Part shown: piece by piece, positions 21,479-26,771 of the stretch
Layout of the letters: every line of letters starts with the position of its first letter
Numbering within the stretch: the stretch's first letter is position 1
From: a virus
Direction: 5' to 3' (one strand)
Virus record (IMG/VR): IMGVR_UViG_3300006920_000089
Span: 1 to 41,688 of that record
Length of the DNA stretch: 41,688 nt
Made by a program: the position numbers and the translations under genes
Notes under the pieces: model-generated
What the model was told of the DNA's origin: nothing
The model's database searches: none
What the model saw: only the letters and a program-made list of their open reading frames with translations

Positions 21479-22324
21479 ATGACTTTACAAATTAAAAACC
21501 ACAAGCTCTTAGGTGTTGATTATATCCCTTCACCAAACGTATCTTCAGGTTACATCACGCCAAAGATAATTGTTCAGCATTACACTGCCGGGTGGACTGA
21601 CAAAAGTGCAATCGAGACGTTCAAGAGTAAAGCTTCAAAAGTGTCTGCTCAACTAATTGTAGGACGTGACGGTAAAATCACACAAATGGTACCGTTCAAC
21701 CGCAAAGCGTGGCACGCAGGACCGTCGTCTTATGCTGGATACAAAAATCTCAATAACCATGCAATCGGTATTGAGAATGTAAGCATTGGTTATATTCGCC
21801 TGATTGGTCAGGACAAGTGGTTACATTGGAATGGAACGTCTGAATATTCATCAGCGCAGCTCCGTGAGAGGGGTTATGACCCGGAATACTTCGTTGCACA
21901 GGCTCACCCTCGCGTTGGCTCTGGTATGCTCTATTGGCCTTCTTATACAGAGGCTCAAATCAAAGCAAACGATGAAATTGTCCGGGCATTACAGCACACA
22001 TATGGAATTAAACATATTGTAACACACGAAGAGATTGACACGCGTGGGTGGAAGACTGACCCCGGTCCTGCTTTCCCTATGGAACGTTACAAGCAAATGC
22101 TTAGCGAAGGTGAAATTGACCAAGACGAAAGTTACACCACAAAGGTCACAACAAGATCGCTTAATGTGCGAGGTGGTCCGGGTACAAACTACGCGGTGAT
22201 AGATAAGTTACATCGGGGTGACTGTGTTACTGTGCTTGATCGCCAAGGTGATTGGTTATATATCCTGATTGACTCCGAAAAGGAGGGATGGATACATGGC
22301 TATTACACCCAAAGACCGGAATAA
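21479..22324 (+). CDS. Endolysin: N-acetylmuramoyl-L-alanine amidase with SH3 domain
   Basis: A 281-residue Amidase_2 (AmpD/T7-lysozyme-type) enzyme that cuts the bond between MurNAc and L-Ala in murein. Zinc ligands are predicted at H34 (IIVQHYTAG), H183 (VTHEEIDTRG) and D194 (KTDPGP). The spacing of the last two matches AmpD. The amidase domain covers about residues 1-205. A C-terminal bacterial SH3 domain (about 217-280, TTRSLNVRGGPGTNYAVI ... WLYILI) should bind the cell wall. There is no signal peptide, so a holin is needed, and the next gene overlaps its end by 29 nt. AGGTG precedes the ATG. Confidence 0.94.
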   Translation: MTLQIKNHKLLGVDYIPSPNVSSGYITPKIIVQHYTAGWTDKSAIETFKSKASKVSAQLIVGRDGKITQMVPFNRKAWHAGPSSYAGYKNLNNHAIGIENVSIGYIRLIGQDKWLHWNGTSEYSSAQLRERGYDPEYFVAQAHPRVGSGMLYWPSYTEAQIKANDEIVRALQHTYGIKHIVTHEEIDTRGWKTDPGPAFPMERYKQMLSEGEIDQDESYTTKVTTRSLNVRGGPGTNYAVIDKLHRGDCVTVLDRQGDWLYILIDSEKEGWIHGYYTQRPE

Positions 22325-22694
22325 AGAACCGGATGATTTAAAACCAAATTCACCAAACAGAACTCGCAGATCGATCTTTGTTTTTGGTGGGACGATTCTT
22401 TTCACTGGACTAGCCGCGTACACCACGTTGACTATGGAAGGCAGGTTGCCTGAACTATTCGTACAGGGGGCGCTTGGCATAGTGGAATTAATCGTCATTT
22501 CTTACTTGTTTACGACAACGATCGATAGATCAGAAGTCCTGACAAGAATTGGTAAAGGCGTCGAAAATATGGGCGAGCGAAAGCGGTACAATCCGCGTTA
22601 TGATTATGACAACCCGCAGGATAAACCGTTTCAGGAGCCAGCATACCATCGTCAAGAACAATACTATCAACATGACGAAGACACAAAAGGATAA
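22296..22694 (+). CDS. Probable holin, two TM segments
   Basis: 132 residues from ATG 22296. AGGAGG (22281-22286) lies 9 nt upstream, inside the end of the endolysin gene, so this start is better than the in-frame TTG 22269. The cytoplasmic N-terminus is charged (KDRNKEPDDLKPNSPNRTRR). Two hydrophobic helices follow (SIFVFGGTILFTGLAAYTTL and ELFVQGALGIVELIVISYLF), then a long hydrophilic Tyr/Asp/Gln-rich tail. Position between endolysin and spanins, size and topology fit a class II-like holin that releases the signal-less amidase. The sequence family itself was not recognised, so the function is inferred from context. Confidence 0.7.
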   Translation: MAITPKDRNKEPDDLKPNSPNRTRRSIFVFGGTILFTGLAAYTTLTMEGRLPELFVQGALGIVELIVISYLFTTTIDRSEVLTRIGKGVENMGERKRYNPRYDYDNPQDKPFQEPAYHRQEQYYQHDEDTKG

Positions 22695-22697
22695 GCT

Positions 22698-23066
22698 ATG
22701 TTTGGAATAAGCAAATACTTTCTGATAGGCGCTGGGGTGATCATTTCGATCTTGCTAGGTTTACTGGCGTTTGAAAAATACACATCAGCAAAGCTTGAAA
22801 CAAAGGTTGCAAATTTGGAGAAGGCGGCGATAGCTGATCAGCTAGAGATTTCTTCCTTGGAAGATGAATTGACAGGTGTTCAATTCAAACTCACCTTAGC
22901 TGAAAACGGACGAGAGTTTGCCTTGAAACGAGAAGCCGAAGCTGAAGCTGATCGAGCTGAATATGAAAAACTATTGAAGGATATTTTAGATGCTAAAGAT
23001 GAAGATGATGGTCCTGTTGCCCCTGTTCTTGAGCGTGTTGTTACTGACCGGGTGTCAAACGACTGA
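22698..23066 (+). CDS. Inner-membrane spanin (Rz-like)
   Basis: A 122-residue protein with a single N-terminal transmembrane helix (YFLIGAGVIISILLGLLAF) and a long periplasmic coiled coil rich in Glu/Ala/Leu (residues 30-100). This is the i-spanin architecture. Together with the outer-membrane lipoprotein encoded in an overlapping frame, it would fuse inner and outer membranes in the last step of lysis, which implies a Gram-negative host. AAGGATAA precedes the ATG. Its last 77 nt overlap the o-spanin gene in another frame, an arrangement known from lambda Rz/Rz1 and relatives. Confidence 0.85.
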   Translation: MFGISKYFLIGAGVIISILLGLLAFEKYTSAKLETKVANLEKAAIADQLEISSLEDELTGVQFKLTLAENGREFALKREAEAEADRAEYEKLLKDILDAKDEDDGPVAPVLERVVTDRVSND

Positions 23067-23334
23067 CATTCGAATTATCACACAGCAAGTTGTGATATCG
23101 CCAAAGATCGATGCATCCTTGCTCACCTGTAAGGCTAAGCCAAAAAAGCTGGTAGCTCCTTTTACCCAAAGGGACGTCGCGGTTTATTTGCTGCGCTTGG
23201 AAGCAACTACTGACGATTGTAAGAAAGACCTTGCCGCTGTCAAGAAAGCGCTTCAAGCTTACATTGTTCAGATTGATGCGTTCAACAAAAAGCGCGAAGC
23301 TGAAGCAAAGGCAAAAGCCAAGTCAGCTAGTTGA
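22990..23334 (+). CDS. Outer-membrane lipoprotein spanin (Rz1-like)
   Basis: A 114-residue protein with a lipoprotein signal: MLKMKMMVLLPLFLSVLLLTGC, lipobox LLTG-C22. The mature part (about 93 residues) is helical, with KKDLAAVKKALQAYIVQIDAF and a Lys/Ala tail. The start ATG 22990 is favoured by GAAGGA (22976-22981) 8 nt upstream, inside the i-spanin gene. The protein should be anchored in the outer membrane and bind the i-spanin coiled coil. It overlaps the i-spanin by 77 nt rather than being fully embedded. Its TGA stop lies inside TTGACA, a perfect -35 hexamer. Confidence 0.85.
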   Translation: MLKMKMMVLLPLFLSVLLLTGCQTTDIRIITQQVVISPKIDASLLTCKAKPKKLVAPFTQRDVAVYLLRLEATTDDCKKDLAAVKKALQAYIVQIDAFNKKREAEAKAKAKSAS

Positions 23335-23388: not shown

Positions 23389-23778
23389 ATGTCTGACGAC
23401 GCTGATGAAAACCCGACGATAATGCATACGTACTGGACAACTACCTTTATTCCAGAACAAGAAACCCCGGCAAAACTGAAAGACACTATCCAATATTATA
23501 AGACCAAACTTTCTGTTGGTCTTGGTGATTATCTTATAAAAAGTGGGGCTATTGATATCACAATGGTTCCAGCTATCAATGAGGATGGTGTGAGTGGTTA
23601 TGAGGCGTCTGCTATCACTACTGTAATGCATCCAGATTACGTTGAAAGGCAAGACAAGATCGCACACAGTCGTATGAAAGCTTTTGCGGAAGCCTATCAA
23701 TGGCATGACGAGAATTTGCGTGATATGTTCATGCAAATGCTTAAAGATACTGAACCCGACCCAACAATATTGAATTAG
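23389..23778 (+). CDS. Hypothetical protein with possible own promoter
   Basis: A 129-residue acidic protein with a strong ribosome site (AAAGGAG before TTTATG). It has no recognised motif, signal peptide or membrane segment. The patterning suggests an alpha/beta domain: TYWTTTFIPEQETPAKLKDTIQYYKTKL, then GLGDYLIKSGAIDITMVPAINEDG, ending with an acidic helix (DENLRDMFMQMLKDTEPDP). It lies between the lysis cassette and the nucleotide-metabolism gene in a 54-nt gap that holds a palindrome. It is thus placed like a moron, an accessory gene with its own control. The function is unknown. Confidence 0.6.
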   Translation: MSDDADENPTIMHTYWTTTFIPEQETPAKLKDTIQYYKTKLSVGLGDYLIKSGAIDITMVPAINEDGVSGYEASAITTVMHPDYVERQDKIAHSRMKAFAEAYQWHDENLRDMFMQMLKDTEPDPTILN

Positions 23779-23787
23779 GAGACCCGA

Positions 23788-24504
23788 ATGTCCATTACAT
23801 CTTATCGAATTTATTCAAAGCCCAATTGCCCTTGGTGTGTAAAAGCTGCCCGGCTGCTTAAGTCTTTGGATATTCCACATGAAGTAAAACACATCAACGA
23901 CGAATATGAACGGGCTAAACTGGCAGACAGGTTTGTCCATTTCAGCTTTCCCATCATTATCTCATTGCCAGACGGTGCGCTGGTTGGGGGATACGAAGAA
24001 GTGTATAAGTTGTTTGTGAAAGAAGAAGCTCCAACAACAAATTATCCTATCGATTTGAAAGTTGAAAAGATAAACGAACAAGCTGAATTACCAAAGCGCG
24101 GCTCACCTCTTTCGGCTGGTTATGATCTGACAATGGTTACCTCTTCAACCACACCGAATGGTGAAAGGTTCCCAAGTTGCTCTATTCATCCGGGGGAGCG
24201 AAGATTTATCCAAACAGGGCTACGCATATCAATACCAAGAGGTTATTACGGTCGCATAGCTCCACGCTCGGGGCTTGCGGCTAAACATGGTATCGATGTT
24301 TTAGCTGGTGTGATCGACGAAGATTATCGTGGTGAGGTTATTGTCGTTTTGCAAAACCACGGTAAAATGGCTGTCGAGTTTTATGCTAATGATCGTGTTG
24401 CGCAGCTTATCCTTACACCCTACGGCGAAGCAAACGTCATTCCTGTCAAGTCCTTGGATGATACAGATCGATCTGATGGTGGTTTTGGTTCCACTGGAAT
24501 ATAG
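23788..24504 (+). CDS. Glutaredoxin-dUTPase fusion protein
   Basis: A 238-residue two-domain protein. Residues 1-76 are a glutaredoxin: a strand, CPWC (C14-C17), a probable cis-Pro after SF at 55, and the GGYEE segment (68-72). Residues 88-238 are a trimeric dUTPase with all five motifs: AGYDL (110-114), PRSGLA (159-164), GVIDEDYRGEV (174-184), RVAQLIL (203-209) and RSDGGFGSTG (228-237). The dUTPase converts dUTP to dUMP, the ThyX substrate, and keeps uracil out of DNA. The glutaredoxin would reduce disulfides, plausibly those of the class II ribonucleotide reductase encoded convergently next to it. No frameshift or linker stop separates the domains. AGGAGA precedes the ATG. Confidence 0.92.
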   Translation: MSITSYRIYSKPNCPWCVKAARLLKSLDIPHEVKHINDEYERAKLADRFVHFSFPIIISLPDGALVGGYEEVYKLFVKEEAPTTNYPIDLKVEKINEQAELPKRGSPLSAGYDLTMVTSSTTPNGERFPSCSIHPGERRFIQTGLRISIPRGYYGRIAPRSGLAAKHGIDVLAGVIDEDYRGEVIVVLQNHGKMAVEFYANDRVAQLILTPYGEANVIPVKSLDDTDRSDGGFGSTGI

Positions 24505-24510
24505 GTAATA

Positions 24511-24537
24511 AAAAAGCCCGGTCAAACCGGGCTTTTT
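24511..24537. terminator. Bidirectional rho-independent terminator
   Basis: A perfect 12-bp stem AAAAAGCCCGGT / ACCGGGCTTTTT (24511-24522, 24526-24537) with loop CAA. It has a T run on the plus strand and, by symmetry, on the minus strand. It sits between the convergent dUTPase fusion and ribonucleotide reductase genes and ends both transcription units. Confidence 0.95.
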
Positions 24538-24542
24538 CTTTT

Positions 24543-26771
24543 CTATCGTACTGGACAGGCACCTGTCGCACATTCCCCTGTATCAAGCAATCCTTCTATA
24601 TCAGTGCCATTCAAGTCAACAGGCATTAGATAGTCTGCGTAATCATGGAACGTGTCTTTATCGACAACTTCCTGTGGAAGGTAAGGGTGTCCTAAATCTT
24701 CAGCAGTCTTTGTAGGGTCATTGCGATACAAGAATGAAACACCTACATAGATTTCCCAGTTGTTCATGAGCCAATCGATGATCGCAGGAACCTCGTCAGG
24801 TGAATAAGAAACTGTGATCGAACAGTTATGATCGACATAGTTTTCCATCCACATTTTATAGCGGTTCAACTGATCAATAGCTGTTTCCAGATTGACCTCG
24901 ACTTCGACCTCTTTACCCTGCACTGTTTTTACAACTGTATCAAATTTGATATTGTTATATTCGACAGGAAAGCGATAGATGCGAGCGTTCTTGTCCTTTG
25001 GGTGTGGGATAGAATGATATCCTGCATTATCCAAAGCACGGCACGCAGGGTCGTCTTTAGGGAACATGATGTTGTTGAAAATGTAACGACCCAAAGGCTT
25101 GTGCACGCCTTCACCAACTTCGTCACCAATCAATCCAGCAGTCTTTGATTGTGTGCCGGAAGGCTTAACAGTTGTGACAAGTTGTGGTCGTGGTAGTGCT
25201 AGTTCGTCAGCCATACCATTCGCACCATTTTGAGCCGCAAGACGAAGGCGAGACTGCATCATTTTATCATCACACCCTTCCCAACCAATAACGCCTGTCA
25301 CACCAACACCACACAAGCGCAGGAACTCATTCAGTTCGTGCCAAGAGCGCTGTAGTACACCATCATCAAGGTTGACGCAGGTTTGGCGATAGTTTGCACG
25401 TGCAACAAGGTAGTGAGCGCGGTGTAGGGCTGCTTCGTCACCATTGAAGCGACATACGATTGTCTCAACAAGGTTACAAAAGCTTTGGTCACCAAGAAGG
25501 ATTTCACCACAAGGGTTTACACCTTTGAAATATGGTGCCCGGCGAAGCGCTTCAACCGCATTGATAAAACCGGGGTCAGAACCACCTGCATCCATCATCA
25601 GATTGAATATTTCCACCAATTCATCACGTTCAGGCTTGTGAAAGAACAACAATGAATTGTTGGACATTGACTTGTGATCGTTCTTCTTTTTAACAAGTTT
25701 CTCGTCAACCCATCCACGTTGGAACGGGATACGACCATTCACAGCATCACCCCATGCACATTCACTTGTGCCTTCTTTCATCACACCAATCGACTGATCA
25801 TCCGTAGCGTTTGCATAAACCGACGCGTCTTCAAGGGCATGATGGAAATAGTAGTCTTTCTTCATCGTAGCAATGTTACGCCACTCTGGACCACCAAACA
25901 TATAAAGACCAATCTCGGCAGAACGACGTGATGATAAGATAGTGCCAAGGTAGTTCGCAATTTCATGAATTTCCTCGCTGGTGAGCAAACGCCCGGCACC
26001 CTTGTTCATAATCTCAATAATGCCAATTACCGCTTCAGCAATCTGTTCATCGCCTGAAGAAATCCAACCATATCCTGACAAGCGATAGCCAGCCGGGCGT
26101 ACTTCACGGAAATCAATTTCAAGCTTCTTTACAGGCTTTTTCATTGCCATGATCTTGCCAAAGAACTTTGCCCATGCTTCAGCACTATCACCCAAACGGA
26201 TATACCATTCTTGTGTTGCCGCATTGTATGTTTCGTAGTTGTTTGGTGCACCCTTTAGCGCCGGGTCGGAAATAGGATTACCTTCATCGTCGTATGTAAT
26301 CACCTTTTCAGAACGATGAATAACAACGTCGTCGATCGCTTGAGCGAAACCATTAAGAACACCAACTTCAGGTAAGAAACCAACGCCACAGCCTTGTAGT
26401 AAAAGCCAGATCGTATCCACAATGTCATGGACTGTGCGCACGCGAAGAAATGAACAATTAAACTGTGAGGCTTCACGTGTCTGAGCAATAGCGGTACCGC
26501 CAAGCCAGCGCGTGCGTCCTGATACTGTTACCTTGCGATTGATAAACAACCCGTACAGTTCGTCCAATTCATCTTCTTGTTCTTTGTCTAGTGGTTGACC
26601 GTGTTGCGCTCTCTCCCACAACCAACGCTGGTGATCGATAACACGTAGCCATGATTGTTCTGGTGTTTCGAACGTCTTGCCATGCTTGTCAAGAGGACGC
26701 AGATAAGTGCGTCGTTCTACAAGTTGGGCACGAACGCTTTGAGTAGGATAGTCGTTGTAGGTCACAGACAT
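24543..26771 (-). CDS. nrdJ: Class II (adenosylcobalamin) ribonucleoside-triphosphate reductase
   Basis: A 742-residue monomeric B12-dependent reductase of the Lactobacillus leichmannii RTPR type, converting NTPs to dNTPs. Catalytic residues map well: C106 (FNCSF) corresponds to Lactobacillus C119, C421 in NPCGE to the thiyl C408 with E423 as E410, and C432 to C419 with identical spacing of 11. The C-terminal shuttle pair is C734/C739 (CATGACPVR). The enzyme needs host or environmental B12 and a thioredoxin/glutaredoxin donor; a glutaredoxin domain is encoded just across the terminator. GAGGAG lies about 11 nt before the ATG. It is the last gene of the minus transcription unit and has its own promoter and a roughly 100-nt leader. 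Confidence 0.95.
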   Translation of the reverse strand: MSVTYNDYPTQSVRAQLVERRTYLRPLDKHGKTFETPEQSWLRVIDHQRWLWERAQHGQPLDKEQEDELDELYGLFINRKVTVSGRTRWLGGTAIAQTREASQFNCSFLRVRTVHDIVDTIWLLLQGCGVGFLPEVGVLNGFAQAIDDVVIHRSEKVITYDDEGNPISDPALKGAPNNYETYNAATQEWYIRLGDSAEAWAKFFGKIMAMKKPVKKLEIDFREVRPAGYRLSGYGWISSGDEQIAEAVIGIIEIMNKGAGRLLTSEEIHEIANYLGTILSSRRSAEIGLYMFGGPEWRNIATMKKDYYFHHALEDASVYANATDDQSIGVMKEGTSECAWGDAVNGRIPFQRGWVDEKLVKKKNDHKSMSNNSLLFFHKPERDELVEIFNLMMDAGGSDPGFINAVEALRRAPYFKGVNPCGEILLGDQSFCNLVETIVCRFNGDEAALHRAHYLVARANYRQTCVNLDDGVLQRSWHELNEFLRLCGVGVTGVIGWEGCDDKMMQSRLRLAAQNGANGMADELALPRPQLVTTVKPSGTQSKTAGLIGDEVGEGVHKPLGRYIFNNIMFPKDDPACRALDNAGYHSIPHPKDKNARIYRFPVEYNNIKFDTVVKTVQGKEVEVEVNLETAIDQLNRYKMWMENYVDHNCSITVSYSPDEVPAIIDWLMNNWEIYVGVSFLYRNDPTKTAEDLGHPYLPQEVVDKDTFHDYADYLMPVDLNGTDIEGLLDTGECATGACPVR

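Follow-up and report, generated by a model that had tools for sequence, protein, structure and literature searches.

The viral record IMGVR_UViG_3300006920_000089 (IMG/VR; 41,688 nucleotides, analysed at its full length and referred to here as the window) carries a gene in which a glutaredoxin (Grx) and a dUTPase are joined in one frame. This one-frame fusion looks real, as an earlier note made from the sequence had described it, and it combines well-known domains in a new way. We lean towards the view that the product is a bifunctional protein, in which the glutaredoxin half reduces the class II ribonucleotide reductase (RNR) of the phage and the dUTPase half removes dUTP, the tethering of the two being incidental or of modest use.

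A glutaredoxin and a dUTPase in one open frame

The fusion gene is a single frame that runs uninterrupted from ATG to TAG over 238 amino acids, with no stop inside. The Shine-Dalgarno (SD)-like sequence ahead of its ATG pairs with the 16S tail at -7.3 kcal/mol, compared to a background median of -2.4. The coordinates, the open frame and both domains are as the earlier note gave them, and the domain search that it proposed places Glutaredoxin (PF00462) and dUTPase (PF00692) above their gathering scores. The gene is laid out as follows (L350 is a contig of a second virus, described below):

23777..23782, plus strand: Shine-Dalgarno-like AGGAG 5' of the fusion ATG (sequence; 16S-tail pairing)
23788..24504, plus strand: glutaredoxin-dUTPase fusion gene, 238 amino acids, ATG start (fused homologue at L350:2495-3214)
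23788..24018, plus strand: glutaredoxin domain, residues 1-77 (PF00462; AlphaFold; Foldseek)
24019..24051, plus strand: linker of about 11 residues, residues 78-88 (alignment with Grx and dUTPase proteins that relatives encode separately)
24052..24501, plus strand: dUTPase domain, residues 89-238 (PF00692, TIGR00576; phmmer and Foldseek against PDB dUTPases)

In the glutaredoxin half, PF00462 matches residues 8-49 (E 1e-7; E 1.8e-8 for the domain alone) with 32.5-34.9 bits against a curated cut-off of 22.9, and NCBIfam GRX_bact matches weakly. The CxxC active site typical of glutaredoxins is present as CPWC at residues 14-17; the cis-Pro loop SFP with P55 and the GG motif at G67-G68 would, judged from sequence, provide the glutathione site. 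Both cysteines of CPWC, P55 and the GG motif are invariant across 36 aligned sequences, namely that of the window and 35 phage or viral glutaredoxins. AlphaFold models this half with a pLDDT of 86, and the best Foldseek matches are Francisella Grx1 (3msz) and E. coli Grx3 (3grx); the glutaredoxin fold, on which the earlier reading of the N-terminal domain depended, is thus recovered in the prediction.

The dUTPase half is matched by PF00692 over residues 98-237 (E 4.9e-34; 117 bits, cut-off 22) and by NCBIfam dut at E 3.2e-44, and its closest relatives, by phmmer and by Foldseek against the PDB, are ordinary dUTPases. All five motifs that had been claimed for it are present and complete (AGYDL 110-114, PRSGLA 159-164, GVIDEDYRG 174-182, DRVAQLI 202-208 and GGFGSTG 231-237), together with R228, and the positions that do not vary among 28 aligned dUTPases are all conserved, including the catalytic Asp of motif III (D177) and the Arg and Phe of motif V (R228 and F233). 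The fusion's dUTPase belongs by sequence to the trimeric family, and the protein would probably assemble as a trimer, the model itself being that of a monomer.

The class II RNR and the local genes

The genes around the fusion are listed below (L431 is a longer contig of the same virus as L350).

21479..23334, plus strand: lysis cassette with an amidase/SH3 endolysin, a 141-aa membrane protein and overlapping small ORFs (same order in L350/L431)
23389..23778, plus strand: 129-aa gene immediately 5' of the fusion (homologue at the equivalent place in L350)
24511..24537, no strand assigned: symmetric terminator-like hairpin between the convergent fusion and RNR genes
24543..26771, minus strand: class II (adenosylcobalamin-type, monomeric) RNR (TIGR02505, phrog_367, 1l1l, C-terminal tail)

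The fusion is the last gene on the plus strand; it lies on the strand of the lysis genes, opposite the RNR and outside the RNR operon. Within the lysis cassette the endolysin is identified by domain matches, and the 141-aa protein and the small ORFs are holin-like and spanin-like, respectively, by position and sequence only. The RNR scores 461 bits against TIGR02505 (cut-off 340), which places it in the monomeric RTPR family, and it matches the Lactobacillus enzyme 1l1l. It carries the motifs FNC (C106), NPCGEI (C421) and SFCNL (C432) and ends in CATGACPVR, where the tail pair is C734-ATGA-C739; family match, structural match and tail all bear out the earlier description of a convergent class II reductase with a CATGAC C-terminal pair. 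Queries with phage NrdB proteins found no NrdB-like frame in the window, whose record may be a fragment. On the strand of the RNR and 5' of it are a helix-turn-helix (HTH) gene, ThyX and a dNMP kinase.

Two side observations concern these genes. The dNTP gene set of the window is broad, comprising a YfbR-like HD 5'-deoxynucleotidase (PF12917; 39653-40276, minus strand), ThyX, the dNMP kinase, the dUTPase and the RNR. In the RNR, some 60 residues are inserted (window 25660-25870, residues ~305-369); the insertion is partly common to the related viral contigs L014 and L074 and is missing in L012, L056, L066 and L067.

Relatives with separate glutaredoxin and dUTPase genes

Relatives were gathered by scanning viral contigs with the RNR and with alignments of Grx and dUTPase. 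In seven related viral contigs (L014/L294, L056/L218, L066, L067, L074, L223 and L354) a class II RNR, a glutaredoxin and a dUTPase are encoded by separate, consecutive genes in this order on one strand; L014 and L294 are the same prophage, in Rhizobium rosettiformans. In some relatives the stop and start of the separate genes overlap, as in the ATGA of L074. The contig L012 has the RNR and the dUTPase without a glutaredoxin, and the cultured Roseobacter phage DSS3P8 has class Ia nrdB and nrdA followed by grx and dut. The order is reversed at L409:1299-1977, where a dUTPase gene is followed by an overlapping glutaredoxin gene.

A tail of the C-x4-C type is found in 151 of 153 viral class II RNRs. 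Among the 130 class II RNR loci with enough downstream sequence, 24 rows have a CxxC glutaredoxin within 250 nt 3' of the RNR stop, some of these rows being near-identical and so not all independent; in the separate Grx genes that adjoin a class II RNR, CxxC is kept in all. The link of glutaredoxin to class II RNR is thus well supported by the gene neighbourhoods of the relatives. The separate neighbouring RNR, grx and dut genes there speak for a common pathway and are the probable source material of the fusion, which most likely arose when neighbouring grx and dut genes, 3' of a class II RNR as in related phages, merged into one frame.

A second fusion in another virus

A glutaredoxin-like domain is also joined to a dUTPase at L350:2495-3214 (IMGVR_UViG_3300002334_000271) and in the longer contig L431 (IMGVR_UViG_3300002334_000183), which comes from the same sample and is identical in sequence to L350. 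The two fusions share 42% identity over 204 aligned positions that span both domains. The gene stands in an equivalent position, in the order endolysin, spanin-like gene, homologue of the 129-aa gene (24% identity, pairwise E 7e-9) and fusion. In L350/L431, what follows on the same strand is a class Ia NrdB-NrdA pair (L431 4762-7435) and not a class II enzyme. Beside a shared lysis cassette and fusion, the RNR differs, being class Ia nrdBA (plus strand) in L431 and class II (minus strand) in the window; this difference is a cassette swap.

The active site of the second fused glutaredoxin reads SLDC where the window has CPWC, so that the nucleophilic cysteine is lost. The Pfam glutaredoxin model leaves only a trace on this protein (E 0.057), and a Grx profile built without the window sequence gives it 20.3 bits, compared to at most 6.3 for shuffled sequences. 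Trees of the dUTPases place the two fused ones apart, so the fusions may differ in their history; a single clade is not rejected (AU test, p 0.11). A sister fusion without the nucleophilic cysteine offers a natural comparison between redox activity and mere attachment as the property that is kept. The same virus encodes a thioredoxin-like protein (L433:1468-1827, minus strand) with AGPC in place of CGPC; both of its redoxins are thus without the nucleophilic cysteine, yet its NrdA tail keeps CAVC.

What the fused protein may do

RNR tails are reduced by dithiol glutaredoxins. With CPWC intact and glutaredoxin linked to RNR in the relatives, the glutaredoxin half in the window most likely serves as an electron donor to the class II RNR. 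No further Grx/Trx-like protein was detected in the record, which is linear and may be a fragment; that the fusion is the sole such protein detected there fits a role as RNR donor. The glutaredoxin half would reduce the C-terminal cysteine pair of the phage class II RNR and would draw its electrons from host glutathione. The dUTPase half would turn dUTP into dUMP, which the phage ThyX and dNMP kinase could pass on towards dTTP. The joining itself may be incidental or modestly useful, by giving one message, equal amounts of the two halves and possibly avidity in a trimer, and would bring no new chemistry. Phage class II RNRs are usually regarded as thioredoxin-fed; if the glutaredoxin half does reduce the RNR, a donor for these enzymes would be named. 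Gene fusions reveal proteins that work together, and in this case the glutaredoxin is joined to the dUTPase and not to the RNR, although relatives keep RNR, grx and dut consecutive.

A mechanism of this kind had been put forward in the earlier note, and part of it stands: the two folds, the C-x4-C-tailed class II RNR and the genomic link between Grx and RNR are all supported. What does not stand is electron donation as a fixed property of the fusion, since L350 has SLDC instead of CPWC and sits beside a class Ia RNR.

It is possible, if distinctly less probable than a reductant role, that the glutaredoxin half acts in tethering, folding or docking, or has been drifting since the fusion, and is not chiefly an RNR reductant; the useful product would then be the dUTPase, possibly also on its own. 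Such a reading suits the second fusion, where the glutaredoxin-like signal has outlasted the nucleophilic cysteine, as well as the location of the window gene outside the RNR operon, and it draws further on in-frame starts with SD-like sequence that precede the dUTPase domain in both fusions. Those of the window are:

24001..24019, plus strand: possible internal starts GTG 24001, TTG 24010 and GTG 24016

The first of these, GTG 24001, comes with an SD-like GGGGGA (-8.4 kcal/mol), which at the same time encodes the GG motif; GTG 24016 is without an SD (-3.1 kcal/mol, background level). In L350 an in-frame ATG at 2744 lies just 5' of the dUTPase domain, with an SD of -7.9 kcal/mol. With in-frame internal starts and SD-like sequence in both fusions, free dUTPase beside the fused form is possible, and in both viruses it may also be made from such a start. 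An argument from SD pairing that the dUTPase is without a start of its own is weakened by the GGGGGA at GTG 24001. Nevertheless, the window protein has the full set of catalytic marks (CPWC, P55 and GG), it has no other redoxin beside it in the record, and wherever a separate Grx gene adjoins a class II RNR, its CxxC is retained; these points speak for the RNR reductant.

We think it unlikely that the target of the glutaredoxin is the dUTPase itself, or some other protein of phage or host, for thiol protection or redox control, instead of the RNR. Glutaredoxins have broad substrates, and the dUTPase domain does contain a cysteine, C131, in an insertion missing from most relatives; this residue is, however, not conserved, and the related phages tie glutaredoxin to RNR with or without an adjacent dUTPase.

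The stronger version of RNR reduction, an adaptive tethered-reductant device in which a dUTPase trimer would carry three glutaredoxins that dock on the RNR tail, with RNR reduction and dUTP removal united in one complex in the infected cell, also seems improbable to us. The three reductants on a trimer and the coordination of dUTP removal with dNTP synthesis that the earlier note proposed are not supported by these results. A sister without the nucleophilic cysteine and a window gene outside the RNR operon argue that attachment is not generally needed for RNR reduction.

Finally, it is very unlikely that the fused frame is a sequencing or assembly error across a grx gene ending at TGA 24017-24019 and a dut gene starting at GTG 24016. 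The fusion hinges on the frame read through 24000-24050, where the TGA lies in the +1 frame and overlaps the in-frame GTG. Were one base lost 5' of 24017, two genes overlapping by GTGA would result, an arrangement of the type known from L074 (ATGA), and in principle one error would be enough to produce the fusion; the search of viral contigs also yielded no independent contig with the window's junction. Yet the proposed dut start is the one lacking an SD, and the same fused architecture recurs at 42% identity and with the same neighbours in two identical contigs of a second virus; a fused homologue in another virus, at the equivalent place after the lysis genes, makes a sequencing artefact unlikely.

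Comparison with known systems

Fusions of glutaredoxin to RNR itself are known. In the Grx::ATP-cone::NrdB of Facklamia ignava the fused Grx is a proven, efficient RNR reductant, and Grx::NrdB occurs in Francisella and in viruses, and grx::nrdJ in Labrenzia (PMC6187632). The Caulobacter phages BL47 and CcrSwift have NrdB with a C-terminal Grx. Like these, the window has a CxxC-keeping Grx inside a protein of dNTP synthesis that is encoded by or beside RNR genes; unlike them, its Grx is carried by the dUTPase and would have to reach the RNR as a partner protein. It is therefore not a Grx::RNR fusion in the sense of a Grx covalently within an RNR subunit, the RNR having its own gene on the opposite strand.

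The nearest parallels in gene content are DSS3P8, L014/L294, L066, L067, L074, L223 and L354, which encode these two proteins, likewise in the order grx-dut, beside an RNR. They have them as two genes on the RNR strand, whereas the window has one gene, on the strand opposite the RNR and at the end of a lysis cassette. A fusion involving a thymidylate enzyme is described in the baculovirus PeluSNPV (PMC4895240). Its two parts are reportedly a thymidylate kinase and a dUTPase; the likeness would lie in a dUTPase linked to another enzyme of its own pathway, and the difference in a partner that is no redoxin and in an insect virus instead of a phage.

By sequence or predicted fold, the two halves match an ordinary trimeric dUTPase (3so2, 4oop, 2hqu) and a dithiol glutaredoxin (3msz, 3grx). 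No PDB chain with both domains is among the matches listed, and the literature search found no paper combining glutaredoxin, dUTPase, fusion and phage. Besides the window and L350/L431, no fused gene is among the phage, plasmid and viral matches listed, in a survey that did not extend to four phage records covering at least 80% of the query. Screens at strict E-values, run without a positive control, gave no fusion in 385 alphaproteobacterial or in 399 Pseudomonadota genomes. Overall, the fusion looks real and rare.

Several candidates for further fusions were set aside. The Bertelyvirus matches (87% query coverage) consist of an NrdB-Grx followed by a separate dUTPase; the long match on a Paenibacillus plasmid is a protein without a CxxC glutaredoxin, and that on a Blattabacterium plasmid runs beyond its dut gene. 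The N-terminal extension of phiCbK-type and Bajun dUTPases was considered as a decayed glutaredoxin and rejected at an hhalign probability of 0.4%. Possible further candidates come from a fold search of BFVD, in which several viral dUTPases match the fusion model along more than 220 aligned columns, though with a high rmsd; A0A7M1S066, A0A517YZK2 and A0A068QKF6, of about 225-238 aa, do so along at least 230 columns, again at high rmsd.
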